A stretch of DNA of 64,000 nucleotides from an uncultured Spirochaetia bacterium (GTDB lineage: Bacteria; Spirochaetota; Spirochaetia; CAKZLE01): the NCBI GenBank assembly GCA_937125225.1, contig CAKZLE010000020.1:434001-498000 (forward strand), read 5' to 3'. The notes below the pieces were generated by a model. It did not search any database and was not told the origin of the DNA. It saw only the letters and a list, made by a program, of their open reading frames with translations. Position numbers and translations under genes: made by a program. Below are positions 1-60,217 of this stretch, piece after piece. Every line of letters starts with the position of its first letter. Within the stretch, counting starts at the first letter, position 1.

Positions 1-538
1 CTTCAGATCTTCTTATCGTGAAGAGTCTTCCGAGACTCAACGTCCCATACCGTGCCCCTTCAGTACAGAAGTATCTGCAGAAGGGTCTATCGATGATCGT
101 TGAGGCGAGAAGGAACAGCGCGAGCAAGATCCATGCTGTGACCGTAATAGATGTGGTCATACCCGAAAGGGAGCCCATGAAGGTCGCATAGGGGGAGCTG
201 AGTATCCCCAGAAATAGTAATCCTGCCATCCCTGCAGCCAAGAGTATATAACGCAGGAAGACGAGAAATCGTTCCACCTTCTCTGGGACTCTCAGTTTTC
301 TACCAAATACCTTGTTACCGGCTCTTCCAAGCCATTCCTGGACGAGACCGAAAGGACAGAGCCATCCACAGAACCAGGAGCCACTCAATAGCGCGATCGC
401 CATGAGTGCAATGGCAACGAAGAAGTCTTTGCCGACAAGGGCCGAGACCGTTGCTGCTAGATAGAGTAGTTGAAAGATGACTCGAAGTCCCCCATACCAG
501 GTTGGCTTCGTCTGAAAGAATCTCTTTTTCTGTCTCAT
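1..538 (-). CDS. 4Fe-4S membrane protein, NapH/YccM-like (C-terminus cut by window edge)
   Basis: The minus frame is open from an ATG at 538 to the window edge (179 codons). The protein starts with a short basic segment and has hydrophobic stretches at about residues 20-50, 85-115 and 125-145. The first cluster motif is WFCGWLCPFGLVQEW, the CxxxCP signature of NapH/NosR/YccM/CcoG membrane ferredoxins, and a second Cys pair (FCRYFC) lies near residue 158. Such proteins pass electrons between the membrane and periplasmic or cytoplasmic partners. It follows the riboswitch-led transporter operon but has its own promoter at 591-619, so it may belong to the next transcription unit. The family is clear; the redox partner is not visible. 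Confidence 0.8.
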   Translation of the reverse strand, partial: MRQKKRFFQTKPTWYGGLRVIFQLLYLAATVSALVGKDFFVAIALMAIALLSGSWFCGWLCPFGLVQEWLGRAGNKVFGRKLRVPEKVERFLVFLRYILLAAGMAGLLFLGILSSPYATFMGSLSGMTTSITVTAWILLALFLLASTIIDRPFCRYFCTEGARYGTLSLGRLFTIRRSE

Positions 539-657: not shown

Positions 658-2685
658 TTAATAGGGTTGTGTTTCTTTGAGTTTATTCTCTCTCAATGGA
701 TTCCTGAATCGATAGAACAGCAGTACGATGATCAGGCAGTTGATGACTGAAGCTGCAGCAAAGAGGTTCCACTGGGGGAAGCCTGAGGCAAGATTTCCGA
801 CTAGGGAGAAGAGTTTGACACTGATCGGGAAGTTATGCTCGGTGTTGATGAACAACAGAGGTGCCATAAAACCATTCCAAGCTGCGATAAAAGCCAGGAG
901 CATATTCACTGCGATGATGGGGAGGCTTAGAGGGAGGAGTATCCTCCTGAAATAGGTCAGTGGGCGAATACCCTCTAACAGAGCCTGTTCTTCGAAAGAG
1001 GCAGGTATCTTCTCCATATAGGAAAGAGAGGTGAACAGGGCTGTGGGTATAGAATGGTTGAGGTAGATCAGGATCAAAGGGATATAGGAATCGATGAGGT
1101 GAAGGCGTCTGAAGAATGCATAGAGTGGGATCAGTGAATGCATCCCCCCGTAGAGTCCAATGATCTGCAGAAAGGTTAGGACGAAGAAGGCTGTCCTGTG
1201 ACCTTTATGGAGAAGACTAAAGGCGGAGGGCAGGATGATCAATGGTAGGAGAATTGCCGTAGCTGTTGAGAGCAGGAGGGTATTGAGGAAGTATCTGAGA
1301 ATATCCTCATCGACTATGATACGAATGAAATTCTCGTAGGTAGGGTATGGTGGGATGATCGAGTCGATATAACTGCTACCGAGACCTGATATACTCAACC
1401 AGATCAAAAGAAAGATGATCAGTGTTGCAGATAGGAGAAAGAGTAAGATCAGGAGTATCGTGATTGATTCATGAAGAAAGGTGACCCCCTTTGAGAGCTG
1501 TAGTCTTTCTCGCAAGGTGAGGAGTCTATCCCTCGTTGAACTTCTATTGGTTATTGAAGGATCGTTCAGCAGAATATAATAGATGAGCAGGGCGAAGAGG
1601 ATCGCGGGAGAGAAACCTTCGAGGAAACCGTATCGTTCGATCGAAAAGATTATCCAGATCGACTGCAATACCAAAATGAGCTTGTAGAGGGCTTTTGAGT
1701 ACAGGGCCGTGAGCCCGTACAGTGCTGCCCAAAGGATTCCTACTGGACCTGCGAAGACGATCTGGCTGATCCCGACAACAAAAGAGGGAGTGAAACCCTC
1801 GATCTTGCCTTTCCGAGAAAAGAACCAGATCAACATCATGGTGAAGACGACACCTGCAAGGATGACAGCATAGGCCGATGAGATACCGAGATCCTCCTGT
1901 GTCTGAAAGATCTCATAGATGAGTATGTCGAGAGTGGTTGTCGCTCCGATGATGAACTTATCGGTGATACCAGAGATCAAGGGTGGGCCACCTGAGGTCA
2001 TCAGATAGATCACATTGAACTCTTTCATGAACTTGATGAAGTTCAGGATACTCAAGACGGTGATCGTTCCTCCTATCTGAGGGAGATAGATCCTGTGGAG
2101 AATCTGTCTGTTATCTGCTCCATCAATGAGGGCGGCCTCTTTAAGATATCTTGAGATCTTACTGAAAGAACCAATGAGGATGAAGGTGGTGAAGGGGACT
2201 GACATCCAGATACTGACCCACAGGGTTGAGAGAAAGGATGCTATCGGGTCGTTAAGCAGGTTTATCTCTAGTCCTGTGAGTAGGGAGAATAGTGATATCC
2301 CCCCGTCTCCATGAAAGAACGATCTCCACAGGGGGACTGCGATATAGACCGGTATCCCCCAGGGGATAAGTAAGGCTATGAACAGGAGTCTTCTCTCTTT
2401 TCGTAGGGAACTCAGTTTCCAGGCAAGGAGCACCGATATACCAAGCCCCAGGGAGGTGTTTGCCGCAGCCCAGAGGAAACTAATATTCACGCTATAGGTA
2501 AATCCTTTATCAGAAAGTAGATAGCGATAATTATCGAGACCCGCAGGAGTACGGATCCCGAAGATGTCATGAAAGAATGAAGAGATCACAGCTTCTCCGA
2601 AGGGGGCTATCCCTGCGATCGCTACGATCATAGCCATGGGGAGGAGCAGCCACCAGCTCGTCAGGAATCTTGTAGGTCTCTTCAT
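658..2685 (-). CDS. Single-chain ABC importer permease (fused MalF- and MalG-type halves)
   Basis: At 675 residues this is about twice a normal sugar-type permease. The N-terminal half (about 1-300) looks like a MalF-type subunit with the cytoplasmic EAA loop reading EAALIDGADNRQILHRIYLP. Three or four extra membrane segments link it at about 300-370. The C-terminal half (about 400-670) looks like a MalG-type subunit with a second EAA loop, EEQALLEGIRPLTYFRRILLP. One polypeptide thus carries both docking loops for the ATPase dimer. It ends the operon 4105-5604, 2696-4066, 658-2685 and starts 10 bases after the lipoprotein stop. No ATPase gene is adjacent, so a shared ATPase is assumed. The substrate is unknown; the Moco-type riboswitch upstream suggests a link to molybdenum/tungsten cofactor status. 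Confidence 0.8.
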   Translation of the reverse strand: MKRPTRFLTSWWLLLPMAMIVAIAGIAPFGEAVISSFFHDIFGIRTPAGLDNYRYLLSDKGFTYSVNISFLWAAANTSLGLGISVLLAWKLSSLRKERRLLFIALLIPWGIPVYIAVPLWRSFFHGDGGISLFSLLTGLEINLLNDPIASFLSTLWVSIWMSVPFTTFILIGSFSKISRYLKEAALIDGADNRQILHRIYLPQIGGTITVLSILNFIKFMKEFNVIYLMTSGGPPLISGITDKFIIGATTTLDILIYEIFQTQEDLGISSAYAVILAGVVFTMMLIWFFSRKGKIEGFTPSFVVGISQIVFAGPVGILWAALYGLTALYSKALYKLILVLQSIWIIFSIERYGFLEGFSPAILFALLIYYILLNDPSITNRSSTRDRLLTLRERLQLSKGVTFLHESITILLILLFLLSATLIIFLLIWLSISGLGSSYIDSIIPPYPTYENFIRIIVDEDILRYFLNTLLLSTATAILLPLIILPSAFSLLHKGHRTAFFVLTFLQIIGLYGGMHSLIPLYAFFRRLHLIDSYIPLILIYLNHSIPTALFTSLSYMEKIPASFEEQALLEGIRPLTYFRRILLPLSLPIIAVNMLLAFIAAWNGFMAPLLFINTEHNFPISVKLFSLVGNLASGFPQWNLFAAASVINCLIIVLLFYRFRNPLRENKLKETQPY

Positions 2686-2695
2686 CTGTCTTTCA

Positions 2696-4066
2696 CTATT
2701 CTATGATCATCCTGCTCACATTCCTTACGGCCTTGATGCCTTCAGGAATCATGAGCGCATCCTGGTCCCAGGCGATGACTAGTGGCTGTTCTCGTTCCGA
2801 GAGTTCGCCTCCATCACCATAGTACATTGCAAGGATGACATCAGTGTTTCCCTCTAACTGTTCGGCAGCTAGGGTGATCGAGAAGCCATCTGCAGCCTCT
2901 ATGGTCACACTCTTATATTCCGGATAATGGCTGAACAGTTCATAGAGGGGGATTCCCATATACTCGATGACTGTATCACTCTTCGAATGGTAGTAGCCTA
3001 CGACACTCTTATGGGTCGTCACTCCACTTTGGATAGTCTGTCTATCGAGGATCTCTGATCCATCAACACTCTCTAAAGTAAGAGTGAAATCCTTGAAAGA
3101 AACATCTTCGATGAAGACCTTCTTGATCATCTTCGCAGATATATGACCGGTTATCTGTGGGTTCTTAGGGCCGACTTTCACCAGTCTCATATATCCGGGG
3201 TCCTCTGGCATATACTCCCCATCTTCGATGAAGGCAAGGATCCAGGTACCATCTGCCTGATCGAGTAGCTGTTGTCCACTATAATCCATCTCATACCCAT
3301 CGGTTGATACTATAGTGACTGTCTGATCTGCAGTCAATGCAATCGTATCTCCGATCAGATCGACTAACTTCACTCCACCCCAGATATGCGAGAAGATGAT
3401 ATCATGCGAGTTCTTGTATTCACCGGTATCTTCGATATAATGAGGATGGGCCTGTAACTCTGCCAGGGTATAGACACTCCTGAGGTCCCCGATCTCAAGG
3501 ATGAATTCGAATCCGTTCTCTTCAAGGACTACCGGGGCAAGAGATAGTTCGATAGTCGTAAGTTCTTTGATCCAGAACTGTCCACCAATCTCTCCGATGA
3601 TCATCGGAGGAGTCTTCTCTCCATCTTGGGACAAGGCGATATATATATCCTCAGAGTCAAATTCTGCTGTATCGAAGGTCGCCGCATAGCCATCAGCAGA
3701 ATTTAGCGTGATATCATATCCACTATCCCATAACTCCTTATCGAAGGTGTAGGGCATGGAGCCGTCAGCATCATCACAGATCGCGATGATAGCAGAGAGG
3801 GGAATAGCCTCATATATTCTGGTCTCTCCCTTCTTCTCAAAGGAAAACTCTCTAAGCATGTCCGGATTGTATTCGATCCACGCATCGATATCTGATTCAT
3901 AGATCTCATCAGACCTGACACCTGTCAAGGTTATCATCCATCCTACACCCTCCGGTGTCGCCTGAGATACCGCATCTACGGTATTCTGTCTCTCTAGACT
4001 GGTACAACTTGAGAGTATGACCAGTGCAATTACTGCTGCTATGAGCATCCATCGCCTATTGTGCAT
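2696..4066 (-). CDS. Lipoprotein with three molybdopterin-oxidoreductase-fold-like repeats
   Basis: The first 21 residues form a lipoprotein signal peptide ending at the lipobox LSSC (Cys21). The remaining 435 residues show three copies of a pattern in which a hydrophobic 'G(V/I)xLxxLx' strand is followed by a 'DGYxxxF/Y' or 'DGFxITL' strand, an 'ILAxxxxGE' turn and a closing 'IxxIxI' strand (roughly 40-180, 190-320 and 325-455). The best copy, the second, contains GGVKLVDLIG, STDGYEMDYS, ILAFIEDGEYM and a YMRLV strand. In known families this resembles the sulfite-oxidase-type molybdopterin-binding fold in forms without the cofactor Cys. It probably sits on the outside of the inner membrane with the solute-binding protein. 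Function is unproven. Confidence 0.65.
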   Translation of the reverse strand: MHNRRWMLIAAVIALVILSSCTSLERQNTVDAVSQATPEGVGWMITLTGVRSDEIYESDIDAWIEYNPDMLREFSFEKKGETRIYEAIPLSAIIAICDDADGSMPYTFDKELWDSGYDITLNSADGYAATFDTAEFDSEDIYIALSQDGEKTPPMIIGEIGGQFWIKELTTIELSLAPVVLEENGFEFILEIGDLRSVYTLAELQAHPHYIEDTGEYKNSHDIIFSHIWGGVKLVDLIGDTIALTADQTVTIVSTDGYEMDYSGQQLLDQADGTWILAFIEDGEYMPEDPGYMRLVKVGPKNPQITGHISAKMIKKVFIEDVSFKDFTLTLESVDGSEILDRQTIQSGVTTHKSVVGYYHSKSDTVIEYMGIPLYELFSHYPEYKSVTIEAADGFSITLAAEQLEGNTDVILAMYYGDGGELSEREQPLVIAWDQDALMIPEGIKAVRNVSRMIIE

Positions 4067-4104
4067 TTTCTACTCCTATTCATTTGTTTTTATATTCTGT
4101 TAGA

Positions 4105-5604
4105 TCATTGATCTGATGAGGCCTGTTCCAAAAGTCTTTCTCCCTGCTTGAGAACTTCCTCAGTCTTCATCTGTCCTGAGAGTGCGAATCTCAGCAACTT
4201 CCACATGATATTCTTATAGGCCGTATAGGCGCTATCAGAGGGTATAACCTTCCCCTGTTCTGTCTGCTTCAGCATCACCTCATAATAGGGCGTGCTGCTT
4301 TCAAGTGCTTTCGAGGAAAAACTGTTTGCCGGTAGTTTATATAGCTCTTTGGAGAATCGATACTGTACATCGAGTCCTGTGAGATAGGATAGAAGGCGGT
4401 AGGCGAGTATCGGGTGGCTCGAATGATGAGTGATCCCGAAGGCTTTGAAGTCGAGCATAGGAGACAGCGGAGTGCTCGTGGCATCATTGATGATCACCGG
4501 TGCGATCTCATAGGGGATTCCAAGCTTCTGGAAATAGGGGATCGAATAGGATGCTGAGTAGATCATAGCTGAACGACCTGAACTGAAGAGTGAGATCATG
4601 GCATCCTTCTCTGTTGGTCGGAAATAGTCTTTCTGATTCAGTTCTACAATATAGTCCAATGCTCTCTTTGTAGGTTCATCGAAGACTGAGATATCTCTAT
4701 TATCTTCGAAGAGTGATTCTTTACCGAAACTGTATTCGAAGGGTAACAGCCAGAATACTGAATAGGCGTTCCAGGTCAATGGAAGGGCGACCTCTGAGCT
4801 CAATTGTGCTGCTAGGGTCTCAAGCTCTGTTAACGTGATCGAATCATGGGAGCTCAGATCGATCAGCTCTGGATTATAAAAGAAAAGCTGAGAATCGCAA
4901 TAGAACGGGAGAGCCCACTGTTTTTCCTGAAGAGAGAAGGCCTGAACCCCTCTCTGATCCAGATCGATCGTGAGTGATTGAGGTAACGGCTGCAGGGCTT
5001 TCGCCTCGACAAGGGAATGGAGCTTACCAGGAGAACTCATGATGATATCTGGAGCACTACCACCTCCCCGTACCACTGAGATCAATCTTGACTCAGGATT
5101 CGGTATATTGAGTACGGTGATATCTATTGCATGGTTTTTACCAAAACGTAGGATCTCCTCTCTCAGCTCATCGGTACCTTCCCAACTGATCCAGATCTCC
5201 AGTTGGTCATCGGCGAGTATCTCACCACTGACATCGATAGAGCCCACATCAGTGAAGATCTGATAGCCTGGGATAAAAAGAGCCAGTTCGGGATCTGAGG
5301 TTAGTAGATAGGAGTGTTCCAAAGTATCTTCAAGGGTCTCGATGCGAAGTGGGATCCCATCGATATTGATCTCCCAAGCCTCGAAGAACAGGGGGAGAAG
5401 TTGGGATAGTACGATTCCCTTCTCCTGTCTGTCACCAGTCAGTTCTTGCGGGAGGGGATAGGACAACTCTGTCAGAACATCGTCTGAGAAGGTCTCAGGC
5501 TGCTTTTGGTTCACTGACACCTCAAGTGCTGAGAGGGATGTTATCCCGATAAAAGAGATCAATATACAGGTGATACTCAAAGAGATCCTTCGTAATGTAA
5601 TCAT
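4105..5604 (-). CDS. Solute-binding protein with an extra N-terminal domain, riboswitch-controlled
   Basis: A signal peptide covers about residues 1-27 (hydrophobic core, ending near SLSALE). Residues about 28-135 form an extra domain (GIVLSQLLPLFFEAWEINID segment) that resembles the repeats in the next gene. Residues about 140-499 are a family-1 (MalE-like) binding protein: ISWEGTDELREEILRFG at the start, APDIIMSSPG, and a late YRLLSYLTG segment. I place the start at the ATG at 5604, which has the Shine-Dalgarno AAGGAAG five to six bases upstream. A GTG at 5622 would extend the frame but lies inside the conserved 3' part of the riboswitch. This is the first gene of an operon with the lipoprotein and fused permease. 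Ligand unknown. Confidence 0.75.
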   Translation of the reverse strand: MITLRRISLSITCILISFIGITSLSALEVSVNQKQPETFSDDVLTELSYPLPQELTGDRQEKGIVLSQLLPLFFEAWEINIDGIPLRIETLEDTLEHSYLLTSDPELALFIPGYQIFTDVGSIDVSGEILADDQLEIWISWEGTDELREEILRFGKNHAIDITVLNIPNPESRLISVVRGGGSAPDIIMSSPGKLHSLVEAKALQPLPQSLTIDLDQRGVQAFSLQEKQWALPFYCDSQLFFYNPELIDLSSHDSITLTELETLAAQLSSEVALPLTWNAYSVFWLLPFEYSFGKESLFEDNRDISVFDEPTKRALDYIVELNQKDYFRPTEKDAMISLFSSGRSAMIYSASYSIPYFQKLGIPYEIAPVIINDATSTPLSPMLDFKAFGITHHSSHPILAYRLLSYLTGLDVQYRFSKELYKLPANSFSSKALESSTPYYEVMLKQTEQGKVIPSDSAYTAYKNIMWKLLRFALSGQMKTEEVLKQGERLLEQASSDQ

Positions 5605-5708
5605 CGCTTCCTTTCCAAACACGGGAAGGGTACCAGTTTCCCAGGTAACCTCTATCGGTCACCATCCATAGCGTGTGCCTTAGGAGTAACTGACTCGGAA
5701 GTTTCTTT
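5605..5708 (-). promoter_or_regulatory. Moco (molybdenum cofactor) riboswitch-like leader RNA
   Basis: Read on the minus strand the leader begins CTTCCGAGTCAGTTACTCC and ends TCCCGTGTTTGGAAAGGAAG, directly before the ATG at 5604. This matches from memory the layout of the Moco RNA motif before E. coli moaA, whose 3' end reads CUCCCGUAUCUGGAAAGGUG. Seen pairings: the outer stem CTTCC/GGAAG, an arm CTAT...ATAG, and an arm GGTTACC...GGTACC with the loop TGGGAAACT. The closing strand GGAAAGGAAG contains the Shine-Dalgarno of the first gene, so folding would hide it and control translation. The motif family senses Moco or its tungsten form. Confidence 0.82.
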
Positions 5709-5716
5709 TCTTCTAC

Positions 5717-9506: not shown

Positions 9507-10460
9507 TTAACCCTTTACTCCACCGTCTGATAGACCGGAGACCATGTTCTTCGACAACATGAAGAAGAAGATGATCACTGGTGCCAGGGTCAACGTAGAG
9601 GCAGCCATGATCCTTGCCCAGATACTATTCTTCGAATAGAACAATGCCTGGATCGCAACAGATAACGTCCTCATATCATTGAAGGGTTTCAAGAATACTG
9701 AAGCATACAGATACTCATTCCATGCGATGATGAAACAGTATACGAATACGGTGATCAATACCGGTCGAGAGAGCGGTACGATGATCTTCAAGATGATTCG
9801 GACTCTACCGTAACCATCTATCAATGCAGCCTCTTCGATTGACTTCGGGATTCCTCTGAAATAGTTACCTAACATATAGAGGGCCAAAGGCAGGGTCTGC
9901 ATGATATAGATCATGATCATATAGATAAAGACTCCGGCTGGGGTCTTGGTGAATCCAAGTGAATTTCCCATCTGATAGAGTGGTACCATGAGTACTACTC
10001 CACCAAGGAGATAGACGAACAACGTTCCTCGCCTGAGGATGTTACCACCTCTGAACTCCATCTTCGCTATGGCATAGGCACTGAATACGGCCAGGGTCAT
10101 AGAGAACATAGTCGCTGTTATCGAAAGAAGGAACGAGTTGAGCATATAGCGCATGAAGGGGAAGGGATTCTTGTTCTCATACTTCTCCATGAGCAGGGTT
10201 CTCTGCTCTTCTGAGAGGTTAGGGTTATCAAGGATAGCCTTGACCGCAGCATTCTGTGTTGCTTCGATCGGTTTGAGCCCCAGGAGTTCCTTATAGGCAT
10301 CAAGACTCGGGTTTTCCGGGATCAAGGATGGGGAGGCCATATCCTGTACATCTTTCAATGATACTGAGATGATCTGCATGAATGGGAACAGACAGAATAA
10401 TACTATACCGATGACTGCTAGTGCGAAGAGCACTTTTCCTAATATGTTTTTTGCTACCAT
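9507..10460 (-). CDS. ABC sugar importer permease, MalG type
   Basis: I place the start at the ATG at 10460 (MVAKNILGKVL), which has AGAAGG about seven bases upstream and overlaps the preceding permease gene by 7 bases. The open frame continues upstream, but that part copies the neighbour's DNA. The 317-residue protein has an N-terminal membrane helix (about 8-30) and a periplasmic insert of about 70 residues rich in Asn/Glu before helix 2. It ends with the binding-protein-dependent transport domain carrying the EAA loop EEAALIDGYGRVRIILKIIVP. It pairs with the MalF-type protein and the binding protein in the same operon to import a mannoside or related oligosaccharide. No ATPase gene accompanies it. 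Confidence 0.88.
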   Translation of the reverse strand: MVAKNILGKVLFALAVIGIVLFCLFPFMQIISVSLKDVQDMASPSLIPENPSLDAYKELLGLKPIEATQNAAVKAILDNPNLSEEQRTLLMEKYENKNPFPFMRYMLNSFLLSITATMFSMTLAVFSAYAIAKMEFRGGNILRRGTLFVYLLGGVVLMVPLYQMGNSLGFTKTPAGVFIYMIMIYIMQTLPLALYMLGNYFRGIPKSIEEAALIDGYGRVRIILKIIVPLSRPVLITVFVYCFIIAWNEYLYASVFLKPFNDMRTLSVAIQALFYSKNSIWARIMAASTLTLAPVIIFFFMLSKNMVSGLSDGGVKG

Positions 10461-11323
10461 TTTAGTACCTTCTTGATATAATAGACGATTCCGATTCCTG
10501 CTAATAGCAGTTGAATCAGTGCTGCAGAACATGCAAGTCCCTGATCGATGACTCCGGAGAATGCTTGCTCGTAGGTGAAGACTGATAAGGTCTTGATCTG
10601 TGGGGAGAGCAGATAGATATCTTCGAATCGGTTCAGGTTCCATATGAGTCTGAGAAGAATAGTCGTTCCCAGTACGAACTCGATCTCAGGAAGTGTGATG
10701 TGCCAGAAGCAAGCCCATTTTCCGGCTCCCTCTATTGATGCAGCTTCATACATCGACTTGTCGATGAGCTGTAATCTAGAAAGGAGCAGGAGATAGGTGA
10801 TCGGGAAGTATTTCCAAGTGGTGAATGCTATGAGCACCCACATGACTGAATCAGGATCACCGATCAGGTTCGTATCAGGACTGATAAGATGCAGAGTGTC
10901 TGCAAATACGAAATTGAATATTCCGTTGACTGGATCGAAGATGAACTGCCATCCGAACACCATCGAGATCACTGGTGCGAAGTAGGGAAGTATGATCAAC
11001 GTTCTTACCAGAGAACGTAACGGGAACTTTTGATTCATCAGCAGGGCAGTTCCTAGTCCAAGTAATGTGGACCCGGCAACTGAACCTACTAAGAATATGA
11101 ATGTTGTCCAGATAGAAGCATAGTAGTTCGGGTTGGTAAGAAGATTCTTATAATTACCTAAACCGATGAATGTCTTACTCCCATCTAAACGAACTTCAAA
11201 GAAACTCAAGAAAAGATTGAGGAAGGTAGGGTATGCAATAAGAATACCTATCACAAGAACCGCTGGGGCAACTAAACCCCATGCAAGCCTTTCCTCTTTT
11301 CTAGCTGCTAACCCTATAGCCAT
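10454..11323 (-). CDS. ABC sugar importer permease, MalF/UgpA type
   Basis: The 289-residue protein has about six membrane segments; the first is at about residues 13-38 (GLVAPAVLVIGILIAYPTFL). The EAA loop is EAASIEGAGKWACFWHITLP. This is the standard length for the smaller MalF-like subunits that lack the large periplasmic loop. It starts 25 bases after the binding-protein stop and overlaps the MalG-type gene by 7 bases, consistent with translational coupling. Together they form the heterodimeric channel of a sugar importer. The substrate is inferred from the downstream GH38 mannosidase. Confidence 0.88.
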   Translation of the reverse strand: MAIGLAARKEERLAWGLVAPAVLVIGILIAYPTFLNLFLSFFEVRLDGSKTFIGLGNYKNLLTNPNYYASIWTTFIFLVGSVAGSTLLGLGTALLMNQKFPLRSLVRTLIILPYFAPVISMVFGWQFIFDPVNGIFNFVFADTLHLISPDTNLIGDPDSVMWVLIAFTTWKYFPITYLLLLSRLQLIDKSMYEAASIEGAGKWACFWHITLPEIEFVLGTTILLRLIWNLNRFEDIYLLSPQIKTLSVFTYEQAFSGVIDQGLACSAALIQLLLAGIGIVYYIKKVLKW

Positions 11324-11347
11324 ATCCTCAATCCTCCTCTCGTATGA

Positions 11348-12748
11348 TTAGTTTTCTAAAAGTCTCTTGATCTCTTTCTCAAGATTAGCGATCTCATCGT
11401 CGATGTCTTTGTCTTCGATAGTCACGTTATAGAGCATCTGACCAACAAGGTTCTTTGCAAGGATCGAAGCTGATTCTGGGAAGAGGCTCTCACCAGTCTT
11501 CAGGAAGTCCTGCATAGCACCGAGTCCACCAGCGATCTCATTGATCTTAGCTTTACCATAGTTAGCATATACACCCTTAGGGTCATTGATGAACTGGTCG
11601 CTTTCGATGACTGAAGTCTTCATAGCGAGCATTCCACCAGGTGCGACGTGCAGGTATGGGATATAGTTCTCATCTGACAGGAAGAACTCAGCAAGTCTCT
11701 GTGTTGCTGCAGTCTTTGCTGCATCTTCTGATTTCAGGACGCTCAAAGTCATGATCTCACCGTAACCTGATGATTCAGTGTTAGAGATCAGTGGTACGAA
11801 TGCAGTGTTCTTTACGAGGTTTGAGTCGAATGTCCCACCACCAAGGTCAGAGAAGTTCTCTGAGGTAAGTGATGATGCTGCGACTTCTGCTAGAGAGAGG
11901 TCATCCATGATATATGTTGAGTAATAGAACATTGCCATCTTTCCCTGAATGTAGTAATCACGTGCTCTCCAAGTCTGTGGTCCTGGAGGAGTGAATTCTG
12001 ATAGAGCTTTGTAGTATTCAACAGCTTCTTTGAATTCAGGTGATGTAACTGCAAGGTTACCCTCTGCATCGAAAAGGTGTGCATCATTAGCTGTCGCTAA
12101 GTGAGTGAATGTCTGCTGTGTATAGTTCTCAGGTTTTGTACCGATGAGGATACCATACTGTTTGTTTGCTGGATCATTGAAGTACTCAGCAGCCTTTAGG
12201 ATGTTCTCCCAAGTGTTTGGCGCTTCAAGTCCTGCTTCTTCGAACCAGTCCGTTCTGTACCAGATTCCCTGTGCTGCAAAATGGAAAGGAACACCGAAGT
12301 AGCTTCCATCACCCATCTGTACGTTGTTCAGTGATCCTGGGAAGAAACTATCAGCTCCAACTGAGTTGATGATGGCTTTGTTAGCAGAAGAATCAACGAT
12401 ATTATCTACATTATAGCTCATTGCATAGAATGCTGAGGTCTCGATGAGGTTAGGTCTGTTTGCCTTTCCTGCAGCTGCAAGCTGAGTTGAGAACTCATTG
12501 TCTTCTACTGGGAGCATGGTAACCTTGATATCGGGATTGAGTAGTTGGAATACATCAAGTAAAACCTGAATCTGTTCCTGTCTCTCACTCTGAGTCTGTC
12601 GTGTCCAAAACTGGATCTCTACTGGTTCTGCTGGTGTTGCTACTTCTGGTGCAGCCTCTACTGCTTCCTGCTGTCCACCTGCGAATACGTTACTGAAACT
12701 GGTAAGTAACAGTAATGCAACTACTAGAAGGGTAATGCCTTTCTTCAT
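11348..12748 (-). CDS. Extracellular sugar-binding protein, family 1
   Basis: The N-terminus is a signal peptide (MKKGITLLVVALLLLTSFSNVFA) followed by GGQQEA, the Gly-Gly-x-Glu junction common on spirochaete binding proteins. A Pro/Ala/Glu-rich linker follows to about residue 42. The mature protein has the family-1 pattern: IQFWTRQTQSERQEQIQ, RPNLIETSAFY, YFGVPFHFAAQGIWYRTDWF and a C-terminal helical region. It is first in the operon with the two permeases and the mannosidase, read from a promoter at 12814-12842 with LacI-type operators. A mannose-containing glycan is the likely ligand, by context only. Confidence 0.88.
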   Translation of the reverse strand: MKKGITLLVVALLLLTSFSNVFAGGQQEAVEAAPEVATPAEPVEIQFWTRQTQSERQEQIQVLLDVFQLLNPDIKVTMLPVEDNEFSTQLAAAGKANRPNLIETSAFYAMSYNVDNIVDSSANKAIINSVGADSFFPGSLNNVQMGDGSYFGVPFHFAAQGIWYRTDWFEEAGLEAPNTWENILKAAEYFNDPANKQYGILIGTKPENYTQQTFTHLATANDAHLFDAEGNLAVTSPEFKEAVEYYKALSEFTPPGPQTWRARDYYIQGKMAMFYYSTYIMDDLSLAEVAASSLTSENFSDLGGGTFDSNLVKNTAFVPLISNTESSGYGEIMTLSVLKSEDAAKTAATQRLAEFFLSDENYIPYLHVAPGGMLAMKTSVIESDQFINDPKGVYANYGKAKINEIAGGLGAMQDFLKTGESLFPESASILAKNLVGQMLYNVTIEDKDIDDEIANLEKEIKRLLEN

Positions 12749-57103: not shown

Positions 57104-58381
57104 ATGAAACGTAAATGGATGATGGTTCTATTTTTGTTAGTCTGTGTCTCAATGGCGTTATTCGCTGGTGGAGATCAGGAGAAAGATGGACAGGATGAGA
57201 AGGTGACTTTGAAGTTGTGGAGAATGGGAACTCAAGAGAACTGGGTAACTTATACAAAATCCTTTATTGCAGATTTTGAAGCGACTCATCCCAATATAGA
57301 GGTGGAATATGAGTATATGCCACCAGTGGATCTTCCCCAGAAGCTCAATACTGCATTTGTCGCTGGAATCGGACCTGACATCATAGGATGTAGTATTCAA
57401 CATACTTCAGAATATGCTGCAAAGGGAAAATTTTTGGAACTCGATGATTATGTGGATAACTGGGCTGCTAAAGATGACGTAATGGAATCTATGCTCAATA
57501 CAGCATATTTCAATGACAACTACTATGCACTAGCTTATCATCCAGACCCCTATGTGTTCGTATATAGAAAAGACCTGTTCAGAAAAGCTGGTCTAGACCC
57601 CGAAGACCCACCAGAGAGTTGGGAAGAACTTCTTGAAGTAGCTCCACAACTCACAGAACGTGATGGTGAGATCGTTACTCGAGCAGGATTCCTCATGCCG
57701 ATCGATGACTTCCTGACCTTCGTACCATTCGCAGTGATGAACGGCGCCTCATATATCAGTGATGACAATATGCCAACCTTCAATCAGCCAGAATGGGTTG
57801 AGGCTTTAGAAGTACTCACCAAATTGGTAAAAGATGAGAGAGTGACTATCGAGACTACCAATAACATGGAATGGACTACCTCCTCCTTCGCAAAGGGTAA
57901 TGCTGCGATCGCTCAGGTCAATTCTACGATGGTCGATACTTTTAAGAAGAGTTATCCAGAACTGAAAGACGATGTTGGCTTCTTCGCGATCGAAAGAGAA
58001 CGAAAAAGTAACTGGAATGGTGCATGGTTATTTGCGATCAGTGCAGATTCAAAACACCCAGATGAGGCCTTTGAGTTCATCAGTGAATGGTTCTCACCTG
58101 AAGCTATGTGGAACATGTATGAAGCTACCGGTAACCTACCAGTTTTGAAGAGTCTTGAAGAGAGATTCTCAGCTGTAGACCCTGAGCTCAACAGTGCTCT
58201 GTTCTCAGGTGTCGAACATGGACTTGGTAACCCCCTCGTTCCTTGGGCTACCTTGCAGATCGCTGCTATAAGAAAAGCGATGGGAGAGGCCTTCTATGGT
58301 GAGAAAACACCAAAACAGGCTCTTGAAGATAACTATGAACTGCTTCTAAATGAGATGAAAGAAGCAGGATACCTAGATTAA
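57104..58381 (+). CDS. Extracellular sugar-binding protein, family 1
   Basis: The signal peptide (MKRKWMMVLFLLVCVSMALFA) ends before GGDQEKDGQ, the spirochaete-type junction. The mature domain has VTLKLWRMGTQENWVTY, GPDIIGCSIQHTSEYA, YALAYHPDPYVFVYRKDLFRKAG, WEELLEVAPQL, NAAIAQVNSTMV and FAISADSKHPDEAFEFISEW. It starts an operon of binding protein, two permeases, sulfatase and regulator. The ligand is inferred to be a sulfated saccharide or similar because of the cytoplasmic sulfatase. Confidence 0.9.
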   Translation: MKRKWMMVLFLLVCVSMALFAGGDQEKDGQDEKVTLKLWRMGTQENWVTYTKSFIADFEATHPNIEVEYEYMPPVDLPQKLNTAFVAGIGPDIIGCSIQHTSEYAAKGKFLELDDYVDNWAAKDDVMESMLNTAYFNDNYYALAYHPDPYVFVYRKDLFRKAGLDPEDPPESWEELLEVAPQLTERDGEIVTRAGFLMPIDDFLTFVPFAVMNGASYISDDNMPTFNQPEWVEALEVLTKLVKDERVTIETTNNMEWTTSSFAKGNAAIAQVNSTMVDTFKKSYPELKDDVGFFAIERERKSNWNGAWLFAISADSKHPDEAFEFISEWFSPEAMWNMYEATGNLPVLKSLEERFSAVDPELNSALFSGVEHGLGNPLVPWATLQIAAIRKAMGEAFYGEKTPKQALEDNYELLLNEMKEAGYLD

Positions 58382-58389
58382 TCCTTAAA

Positions 58390-58414
58390 GACCGGCAGGG
58401 TTCTCCTGCCGGTC
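58390..58414 (+). promoter_or_regulatory. Intercistronic hairpin between binding protein and permease genes
   Basis: GACCGGCAGG and CCTGCCGGTC form a perfect 10-bp stem with a five-base loop, nine bases after the binding-protein stop. The tail ATCGATTTTC is a weak T-tract. Probably limits permease expression relative to the binding protein. Confidence 0.7.
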
Positions 58415-58436
58415 ATCGATTTTCACTGGAGAGATT

Positions 58437-59333
58437 ATGCCGAAACATCGATTACTGAAGAGACATCAATATGCTGATAATGGGGCAGGACATCTTATGA
58501 TCCTTCCTTGTTATATTATCTATCTACTATTCGTACTGCTACCGGTACTGATGTCTGTATGGTACAGCTTCAGAAGCTATGACCTGTTCACAAAGAATGA
58601 CTTTGTTGGACTGAAGAACTATATACGTCTCGTTACTGATCCGCTATTCATCAGATCAGTGAAGAATACGCTCTACTATGCTGTAGGAACTATAATCCCT
58701 CAGCTGGGTATTGGACTGCTCTTAGCTGCTGGACTCAATCGAAGGATCAGAGGGAAAGAGGTCTTGAGACTTGCTTTCTATCTTCCTTATCTTGTTTCGA
58801 TGGTCTCTGTATCCATGTTATGGCTCTGGATCTACGATCCTGCAACAGGTGTCCTCAACTCGTTACTCAAGAGTATCGGGATGTCTCCGAGAAGATGGTT
58901 ATTCGATCAGCAGTTAGCTCTCAAGTCTTTAATGGCTATGGGGATCTGGAAGATGGTCGGATACAATATGGTGCTGTTCCTCGCTGGTCTACAGCAGATT
59001 CCTCAGCATCTGTATGAAGCTGCTGAGATCGATGGGATATCACCCTACAGACAGTTCCTTCATATCACCTTCCCATTATTACAGCCGACGACGTTCTTCT
59101 TATTCATCATCAATTCGATCCAATCGTTCGCAGTCTTTGAACAGGTGAATATCATGACCTCCGGTGGGCCGAACAATGCTACTACTACCATAGTTCATCA
59201 GTTGTATACCCGAGGTTTTGTCAACTACCAGATGGGGTACGCCAGCAGTATGGGAGTCGTACTGTTGATCTTTACCATGATACTGACTTTGCTGAATTTC
59301 CGATACGGCAAAGAAGGTAATGATCTACTATAG
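58437..59333 (+). CDS. ABC sugar importer permease, MalF/UgpA type
   Basis: The 298-residue protein has six membrane segments, the first at about 22-45 (ILPCYIIYLLFVLLPVLMSVWY). The EAA loop is YEAAEIDGISPYRQFLHITFP, and the family words IRSVKNTLYYAVGT and LNSIQSF-like INSIQSFAVFEQVNIMTSGG are present. It pairs with the MalG-type gene that starts 11 bases after its stop. No ATPase is in the cluster. Confidence 0.9.
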   Translation: MPKHRLLKRHQYADNGAGHLMILPCYIIYLLFVLLPVLMSVWYSFRSYDLFTKNDFVGLKNYIRLVTDPLFIRSVKNTLYYAVGTIIPQLGIGLLLAAGLNRRIRGKEVLRLAFYLPYLVSMVSVSMLWLWIYDPATGVLNSLLKSIGMSPRRWLFDQQLALKSLMAMGIWKMVGYNMVLFLAGLQQIPQHLYEAAEIDGISPYRQFLHITFPLLQPTTFFLFIINSIQSFAVFEQVNIMTSGGPNNATTTIVHQLYTRGFVNYQMGYASSMGVVLLIFTMILTLLNFRYGKEGNDLL

Positions 59334-59344
59334 GAGTACAGGAC

Positions 59345-60217
59345 GTGATACAGACTAGATCAAATGATTATAAGAACTTATTGATAACCTTCGGACTGGT
59401 AGTGCTTGCACTCATGGTCATATTCCCCTTCTTCCTGATGATCTCAGGATCATTGAAGACGGAGGCAGAGATCAACAGTAGTGTACTGAAGTTACTACCT
59501 GAGACACCACAGTTCGGCAACTATCTACGAGCCTTCGAGCAGGGGCCCTGGGGACGTTGGTTCCTTAACTCTCTGATCGTGACCCTGACGACGACTATCG
59601 TCAGTCTGGTCATCAATTCGATGGCAGGCTTCGCCTTTGCACGGCTTACTTTCTTTGGTAGGGATTTCTTCTTCTATACCGTTCTGTTAGGGCTTATGGT
59701 TCCTCCTCAGCTTACCATACTCCCGACGTTCATCATCATGAAGAAGATTCCATTAGCTGGTGGGAATGATATTCTTGGTGCGGGTGGAACAGGACTGATC
59801 AACACCTATGGTGGATTGATGCTGCCGATCTTTGCCGGAGCCTTTGGGATATTCCTCTGTAGGCAGTTCTTTTTGAACTTCCCCAAATCCTTAGATGATG
59901 CAGCAAAGATCGATGGATGTAGTGTCTCTCGAGTGTATCGACAGATATATCTGCCCAACAGTGGTGCACTTCTCATGAGCCTTGGTGTCCTGAAGGGAAC
60001 CTACTCCTGGAATGACTATATCTGGCCTTTGGCAATCATCCAATCAGAGAAGATGATGACAGTCCAATTGGGACTCTCTCGGTTTAGAGATGCGATGATC
60101 ACCTGGGAGACGCTACTTGCTGCGACCTTTATCGTGATGCTCCCTATGGTCATTCTCTTTCTCGTAGCACAGAAGTATCTGGTAGCTGGTCTCGTAACAT
60201 CAGGAATGAAGGAGTAA
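59345..60217 (+). CDS. ABC sugar importer permease, MalG type
   Basis: The 290-residue protein starts at a GTG (59345) eight bases after AGGAG. The N-terminal helix (about 10-32) is FGLVVLALMVIFPFFLMISGSLK, and the EAA-like loop is LDDAAKIDGCSVSRVYRQIYLP, in which the usual Glu is Asp. It is the second subunit of the importer. It ends with a TAA directly before the sulfatase ribosome site, so the genes are tightly linked. Confidence 0.9.
   Translation: MIQTRSNDYKNLLITFGLVVLALMVIFPFFLMISGSLKTEAEINSSVLKLLPETPQFGNYLRAFEQGPWGRWFLNSLIVTLTTTIVSLVINSMAGFAFARLTFFGRDFFFYTVLLGLMVPPQLTILPTFIIMKKIPLAGGNDILGAGGTGLINTYGGLMLPIFAGAFGIFLCRQFFLNFPKSLDDAAKIDGCSVSRVYRQIYLPNSGALLMSLGVLKGTYSWNDYIWPLAIIQSEKMMTVQLGLSRFRDAMITWETLLAATFIVMLPMVILFLVAQKYLVAGLVTSGMKE

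Follow-up and report, generated by a model that had tools for sequence, protein, structure and literature searches.

A riboswitch-linked ABC transporter operon of spirochaetes as a candidate importer of the tungsten or molybdenum pterin cofactor

The window analyzed here is a stretch of 64,000 nucleotides from contig CAKZLE010000020.1 of an uncultured Spirochaetia bacterium (assembly GCA_937125225.1), and its subject is an operon of three genes on the minus strand, which we consider as a candidate importer of a pterin cofactor. A riboswitch of the class that senses molybdenum or tungsten cofactor (Moco or Tuco) precedes a substrate-binding protein (4105..5604; 499 amino acids, with its ATG at 5604) made up of a signal peptide, an N-terminal domain and a MalE-like domain. 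It is followed by a lipoprotein (2696..4066; 456 amino acids, with lipobox cysteine Cys21) that carries three repeats resembling PF00174, and by an ATP-binding cassette (ABC) permease (658..2685) with two BPD_transp_1 domains, which scans of domain libraries identified as a single-chain fusion of units related to MalF and MalG. The pairing of a MalE-fold binding protein with two BPD_transp_1 units is that of MalEFG-type importers, from which this operon differs in its fused permease halves, the additional N-terminal domain of the binding protein, the partner lipoprotein, the Moco riboswitch and the lack of an ATPase gene in the operon. The gene order is conserved across many spirochaete families, with contig ends interrupting the operon at a minority of loci.

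The lipoprotein had been described in a first-pass annotation, made from the sequence alone, as a protein of three repeats, and profile-profile comparison agrees, as do the coordinates of the open reading frame, 2696-4066. The repeats, located by hhalign at 3542..3940 (repeat 1, residues 43-175), 3101..3520 (repeat 2, residues 183-322) and 2699..3097 (repeat 3, residues 324-456), all on the minus strand, are mutually homologous, with hhalign probabilities of 99.8% for repeats 1 and 3, 98.0% for repeats 2 and 3, and 97.8% for repeats 1 and 2. Repeat 2 is the nearest of the three to PF00174 (Oxidored_molyb), a family that the window lipoprotein matches at 29.1 bits against a curated cut-off of 24 and that all of its aligned relatives (29/29) match at E <= 0.01. 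The AlphaFold2 model of the lipoprotein (pLDDT 86) matched the sulfite dehydrogenase fold in Foldseek searches, as well as the PruR entries 7kos, 7rkb and 7kom, the PruR match extending over ~146 residues with an E-value of about 1e-5 and a TM-score of 0.67-0.74 by target length.

The likeness to sulfite oxidases and dehydrogenases (PF00174; SorA, 2ca4; YedY, 1xdq) thus includes the fold and the family score, and in a profile alignment with SorA the lipoprotein retains two residues, the GYxLRLV arginine and the VKH lysine, which contact the cofactor phosphate in sulfite oxidases. In contrast to those enzymes the lipoprotein consists of tandem repeats, lacks the catalytic cysteine and gives no sign of being an enzyme. 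The first-pass annotation had also failed to see the cofactor-binding cysteine of sulfite oxidases, and rightly: across the 29 aligned lipoproteins there is no cysteine column at the position of the metal ligand, and no recurring cysteine column besides the lipobox and one Cys or CxxC site in repeat 3. That site was tried as the sulfite-oxidase cysteine and rejected, since in the predicted model it precedes strand 3, the expected carrier; as it lies before the strand that would hold the ligand, the catalytic cysteine is absent. A search of the repeat 3 profile against the Protein Data Bank returned weak matches only, none covering the site.

In nine relatives the repeat 3 site, which lies where the first helix ends, reads CVSCH, a CxxCH motif (L066, L068, L070, L072, L073, L075, L078, L081 and L085); eleven others, including archaea, have only the second cysteine, and both are lost in the window lipoprotein, which has TTH where relatives have CH or CxxCH. 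The site may serve to bind haem or a metal, or to form a disulfide. These motifs bear on the idea that the lipoprotein is a redox protein akin to the GEGP diheme proteins and the operon a module for electron transfer or metal reduction. The family model NF041762 (diheme_GEGP) is matched by 26/29 relatives, which speaks for that idea together with the nine CxxCH motifs, although the window copy scores 32.7 bits against a cut-off of 300 and has no CxxCH. A further point in its favour is that genes for a NapH-like ferredoxin membrane protein and a protein with a flavin mononucleotide (FMN)-binding domain follow the permease in the window genome (window 2-538; L030:9398-10538, minus strand), but at the other listed loci the pair was not seen next to the operon. 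The 20 remaining aligned sequences have no full CxxCH, and the redox account leaves the permease unexplained; we give it hardly any credence.

A closer comparison is offered by PruR, a periplasmic protein of the sulfite-oxidase fold that has lost the metal-ligating cysteine and binds pterins (PMC13259868). Like PruR, whose crystals hold pterin (7rkb with neopterin), the lipoprotein is exported, as judged from its lipobox Cys21, and has the sulfite-oxidase fold without the catalytic cysteine. PruR, however, has only one domain and signals to DcpA; here three domains stand in tandem on a lipoprotein, a related domain is also found on the binding protein, and the setting is a transporter operon, with a binding protein and a permease as neighbours and no DcpA/DTB regulator.

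The binding protein belongs to SBP_bac_8 in Pfam, and its AlphaFold2 model (pLDDT 92.5) has MalE as its top Foldseek matches. Its N-terminal domain (5206..5529, minus strand; about residues 26-133) had been proposed to be one unit of the lipoprotein type placed ahead of the MalE-like part. A profile match to repeat 2 agrees with this at 76% probability and a score of 32.8, above all 300 of 300 column-shuffled controls (maximum 21.8). The match to repeat 3 also exceeded all 300 shuffled controls and that to repeat 1 did not, and predicted strands and helices follow one another in a similar way in the N-terminal domain and the repeats. Pfam scans gave no match to PF00174 in the N-terminal domain of the binding proteins. 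The Foldseek matches listed for the binding protein were all MalE and maltose-binding-protein fusion entries, none of them informative on this domain. On profile evidence we regard the N-terminal domain as related to the lipoprotein repeats, a relationship that is real but distant. The annotation had itself named unrelated folds as the outcome that would count against it; none appeared among the lipoprotein repeats, and for the N-terminal domain the case is backed by profile and strand order, with no direct structural match.

The riboswitch, which had been called as a Moco type before any covariance model was applied, is an RF01055 aptamer (5592..5712, minus strand) whose score of 59 bits exceeds the gathering score of 36. 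The positions of stem P3 are deleted in the cmscan alignment of the window copy, and in the aligned copies P2 and P4 stand, by eye, only a few nucleotides apart, as in the P3-less type. This class of Moco RNA correlates with the tungsten cofactor: Regulski et al. found that 17/19 organisms with P3-less Moco RNAs also have genes of tungsten-cofactor metabolism (PMC2408646). By its lack of P3 the window aptamer falls into the tungsten-cofactor type. A Shine-Dalgarno-like GGAAAGGA (5609..5616, minus strand) is embedded in the conserved portion at the 3' side of the aptamer, with 4 nucleotides between it and the binding-protein ATG, and GGAAAGGA stands a few nucleotides ahead of the start codon in the window and in most of the aligned copies. 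Judging from this arrangement, ligand binding to the aptamer probably hides the ribosome site, placing the operon under translational control. RF01055 occurs just upstream of the operon at 23 or more loci, a count that is a lower bound, some distant loci having been outside the Rfam scan. The window genome has a single RF01055 copy, the one on the operon.

We searched 148 related genomes of the class with profiles for the operon, the tungsten-type enzyme aldehyde:ferredoxin oxidoreductase (AOR; PF02730), MoaC and MoeA. Twenty of the 148 carry the operon, and all of these (20/20) have AOR. Put the other way, the operon is found in 20/57 genomes scored strictly as AOR-positive and in 0/91 of the others (Fisher p = 4e-10), and among genomes without MoaC in 8/15 with AOR versus 0/76 (p = 8e-8), both p-values being optimistic because of kinship. 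Eight of the 20 class carriers lack MoaC, MoaA and MoeA. The window genome, which is 97% complete and gave no match to any of the three, is among them, and its one AOR has the AFOR_N and AFOR_C domains and a CxxCxxxC motif. If the cell draws the cofactor from its surroundings, it is understandable that it has a cofactor-sensing RNA but no match for MoaA, MoaC or MoeA.

Sixteen more unique spirochaete carriers came from a search of the whole class together with a scan of GTDB species genomes, duplicates being recognised by shared loci and coordinates. In searches of these for AOR, MoaC and MoeA, 15/16 proved to have AOR; MoaC and MoeA are both missing from 11 and both present in 5. Across all 36 spirochaete carriers the combination expected of an importer of auxotrophs, a cofactor in use and its biosynthesis missing, is common: 35/36 have AOR, and 19/36, including the window genome, lack both MoaC and MoeA. 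In the 24 genomes whose completeness is known, assembly incompleteness would account for 2.6 losses where 10 were observed (p = 4e-5, assuming independence). On the permease tree the MoaC/MoeA-absent state switches 4-7 times, and the pattern has therefore arisen more than once. What stands firmly is the link of the operon to AOR, together with the many carriers that lack the tested pathway genes.

Two explanations can be weighed against these counts. One is that the operon imports a metal-free precursor, such as molybdopterin, cyclic pyranopterin or another pterin, which the remaining enzymes would finish. The cysteine-less fold is that of PruR, a binder of metal-free pterins, and the 17 carriers with MoaC, most of them also with MoeA, could complete such precursors; against this, MoeA, the metal-insertion enzyme, is absent in 19 carriers as well (MoaE and MogA were outside the searches), and we think this version quite unlikely. 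The other is import of an AOR substrate, an aldehyde, acid or sugar-like compound, that is merely co-regulated with cofactor supply. It would fit the MalE-like fold, the strict co-occurrence with AOR and the finding of Moco RNAs ahead of genes for enzymes that use the cofactor as well (PMC2408646). Genomes have from one to a dozen AOR copies, yet keep one operon, and substrate import does not explain why sulfite-oxidase-type domains sit on both exported proteins and recur with other importers, the ECF and Wtp systems described below. It strikes us as very unlikely.

Several loci place the operon beside genes of tungsten and molybdenum metabolism, in keeping with cofactor uptake. AOR adjoins it in two genomes (G109 and G015; loci L032 and L042), in the first under a second riboswitch, and in G120 (locus L036) genes for MobA, FdhD and formate dehydrogenase come after it. 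A small P-loop nucleoside triphosphatase of family PF03266 directly follows the permease at two loci (L034:7091-7591 and L036:13259-13768), with MobA near in both genomes, and a MobB-like role is possible for it. The lipoproteins of family f17 (L047, L048 and L049) are shorter, at 274-290 amino acids with about two repeats, and hydrogenase- or Nuo-like genes are apparently close by at L049. No homologues were found in plasmid records.

Relatives of the lipoprotein also occur in archaea, next to other transporters, and lend independent support to cofactor uptake. Two single-contig archaeal chromosomes (CP070736 and CP070748; G397 and G398) have AOR and a relative of the lipoprotein and, in searches that covered MoaC, MoeA and SBP_bac_11, gave no match to any of these. 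In CP070736 (L089) the relative adjoins an energy-coupling factor (ECF) importer, whose S component (PF09819) is fused to PF00174 and accompanied by EcfA and EcfT; the neighbourhood in CP070748 (L090) is alike by gene order and contains a second PF00174 match. As a PF00174 domain on an importer in an archaeon with AOR and without MoaC and MoeA, this resembles the spirochaete system, but the transporter type is unrelated, which makes it a parallel solution. The PF00174-type domain is thus a recurrent accessory of unrelated importers linked to molybdenum or tungsten use. In two archaea of the anaerobic methanotrophic (ANME) type the lipoprotein relative stands beside tungstate WtpABC genes (WtpA and WtpC were identified in L087, and L088 is alike by gene order). 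At both loci two PF00174-type proteins and a metallophosphoesterase-domain protein adjoin the Wtp transporter genes. One of these genomes (G395) has MoaC and MoeA; the other (G396) has MoeA but no MoaC match.

The Wtp neighbourhood also leaves room for a metal-uptake function, in which the spirochaete operon would import tungstate or molybdate oxyanion in place of ModABC or TupABC and its pterin-fold domains would merely regulate or sense. Moco riboswitches can sit ahead of molybdate transporter genes such as ModABC (PMC2408646), and the ANME neighbours of the lipoprotein are of this kind too. The binding protein, however, is MalE-like by family and fold and so of another family than those of ModABC, TupABC and WtpABC; pterin-fold-type domains are found on both exported proteins; and the operon is kept in the 19 carriers without MoaC and MoeA, where bare metal is not convertible to cofactor by a known route. 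Some carriers moreover have a separate strong SBP_bac_11 (ModA-type) match. The three SBP_bac_11 matches of the window genome are low-scoring and of generic size. PF13531 was tried as a marker of molybdate uptake and proved poor, catching many generic ABC binding proteins; only strong matches were read as ModA-like. Oxyanion import is, in our estimation, unlikely.

On evidence that is above all genomic, we consider it likely that the operon specifies an ABC importer for salvage, from outside the cell, of the tungsten or molybdenum pterin cofactor or of a near-finished form of it. In the scheme that we propose, the sulfite-oxidase/PruR-type domains of the lipoprotein, having lost the metal-ligating cysteine, would capture the cofactor reversibly by its pterin part, and the lipoprotein would pass it on to the binding protein of MalE type, in which the related N-terminal domain may dock or pre-bind it. 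The fused MalF-MalG permease is predicted from its domains to move the cofactor in, with transport presumably driven by an ATPase encoded elsewhere, and the cofactor would then serve AOR, which is retained though many carriers have lost MoaC and MoeA. At high cofactor levels, the P3-less riboswitch would mask the Shine-Dalgarno sequence and turn translation off; the aptamer is observed, and the direction of control is our suggestion. The proposal in the first-pass annotation of an exported, pterin-holding capture device gains support from the PruR-type fold, the ABC permease and the pattern of AOR kept with MoaC and MoeA lost, and ligand binding would be expected on these grounds.

A number of observations weigh against salvage of the cofactor. 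Seventeen of the 36 carriers keep MoaC, 16 of these with MoeA, indicating that the importer is not solely for auxotrophs, and among AOR-positive genomes the operon is not significantly linked to MoaC absence (8/15 vs 12/42, p = 0.12). Five genomes (G001, G040, G062, G114 and G127, the last 68% complete) have AOR with neither MoaC nor the importer, and may represent an orphan AOR, another importer or assembly gaps. Pathway loss as scored here means MoaC and MoeA, with MoaA in part; MoaE, MoaD, MogA, PF00384 and TupA were outside the searches, and a late precursor may be imported instead of the finished cofactor. The PruR pocket is probably too small for Moco (PMC13259868), and the binding protein's N-terminal domain is only a remote relative of the repeats. 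The WtpABC neighbours of the ANME homologues belong on this side as well. Finally, no ATPase gene was found within the operon or nearby, the region to which the search for a MalK-type ATPase was confined. Two more MalEFG-type operons in the window (9507-12748 and 57104-60217) likewise have no adjoining ATPase gene, which suggests a shared ATPase elsewhere in the genome.

Taken more widely, the balance of the evidence tilts towards dedicated uptake of finished cofactor, with cysteine-less receptors of the sulfite-oxidase fold reused on MalEFG-type ABC, ECF and possibly Wtp importers. No bacterial importer of Moco or molybdopterin was described in the open-access literature searched, which is weak evidence of novelty, as subscription journals and preprints lay mostly outside it. 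The transport machinery would be ordinary for an ABC cofactor importer, and the novelty would lie in the substrate and the receptor domains. Among animals, Caenorhabditis elegans takes up bacterial Moco and distributes it by unknown means (PMC9793310). A survey in 2018 reported many prokaryotes that have molybdenum or tungsten enzymes and no complete cofactor route, without deciding between novel components of biosynthesis and metal-free enzymes (PMC6147048). The genome pattern found here supplies named operons and candidate auxotrophs. If the proposal is true, salvage by an importer would explain such incomplete routes in a third way. It would also mean that a fragile cofactor is exchanged between microbes, and that some microbes whose tungsten or molybdenum enzymes look orphaned are salvagers relying on their neighbours for the cofactor.

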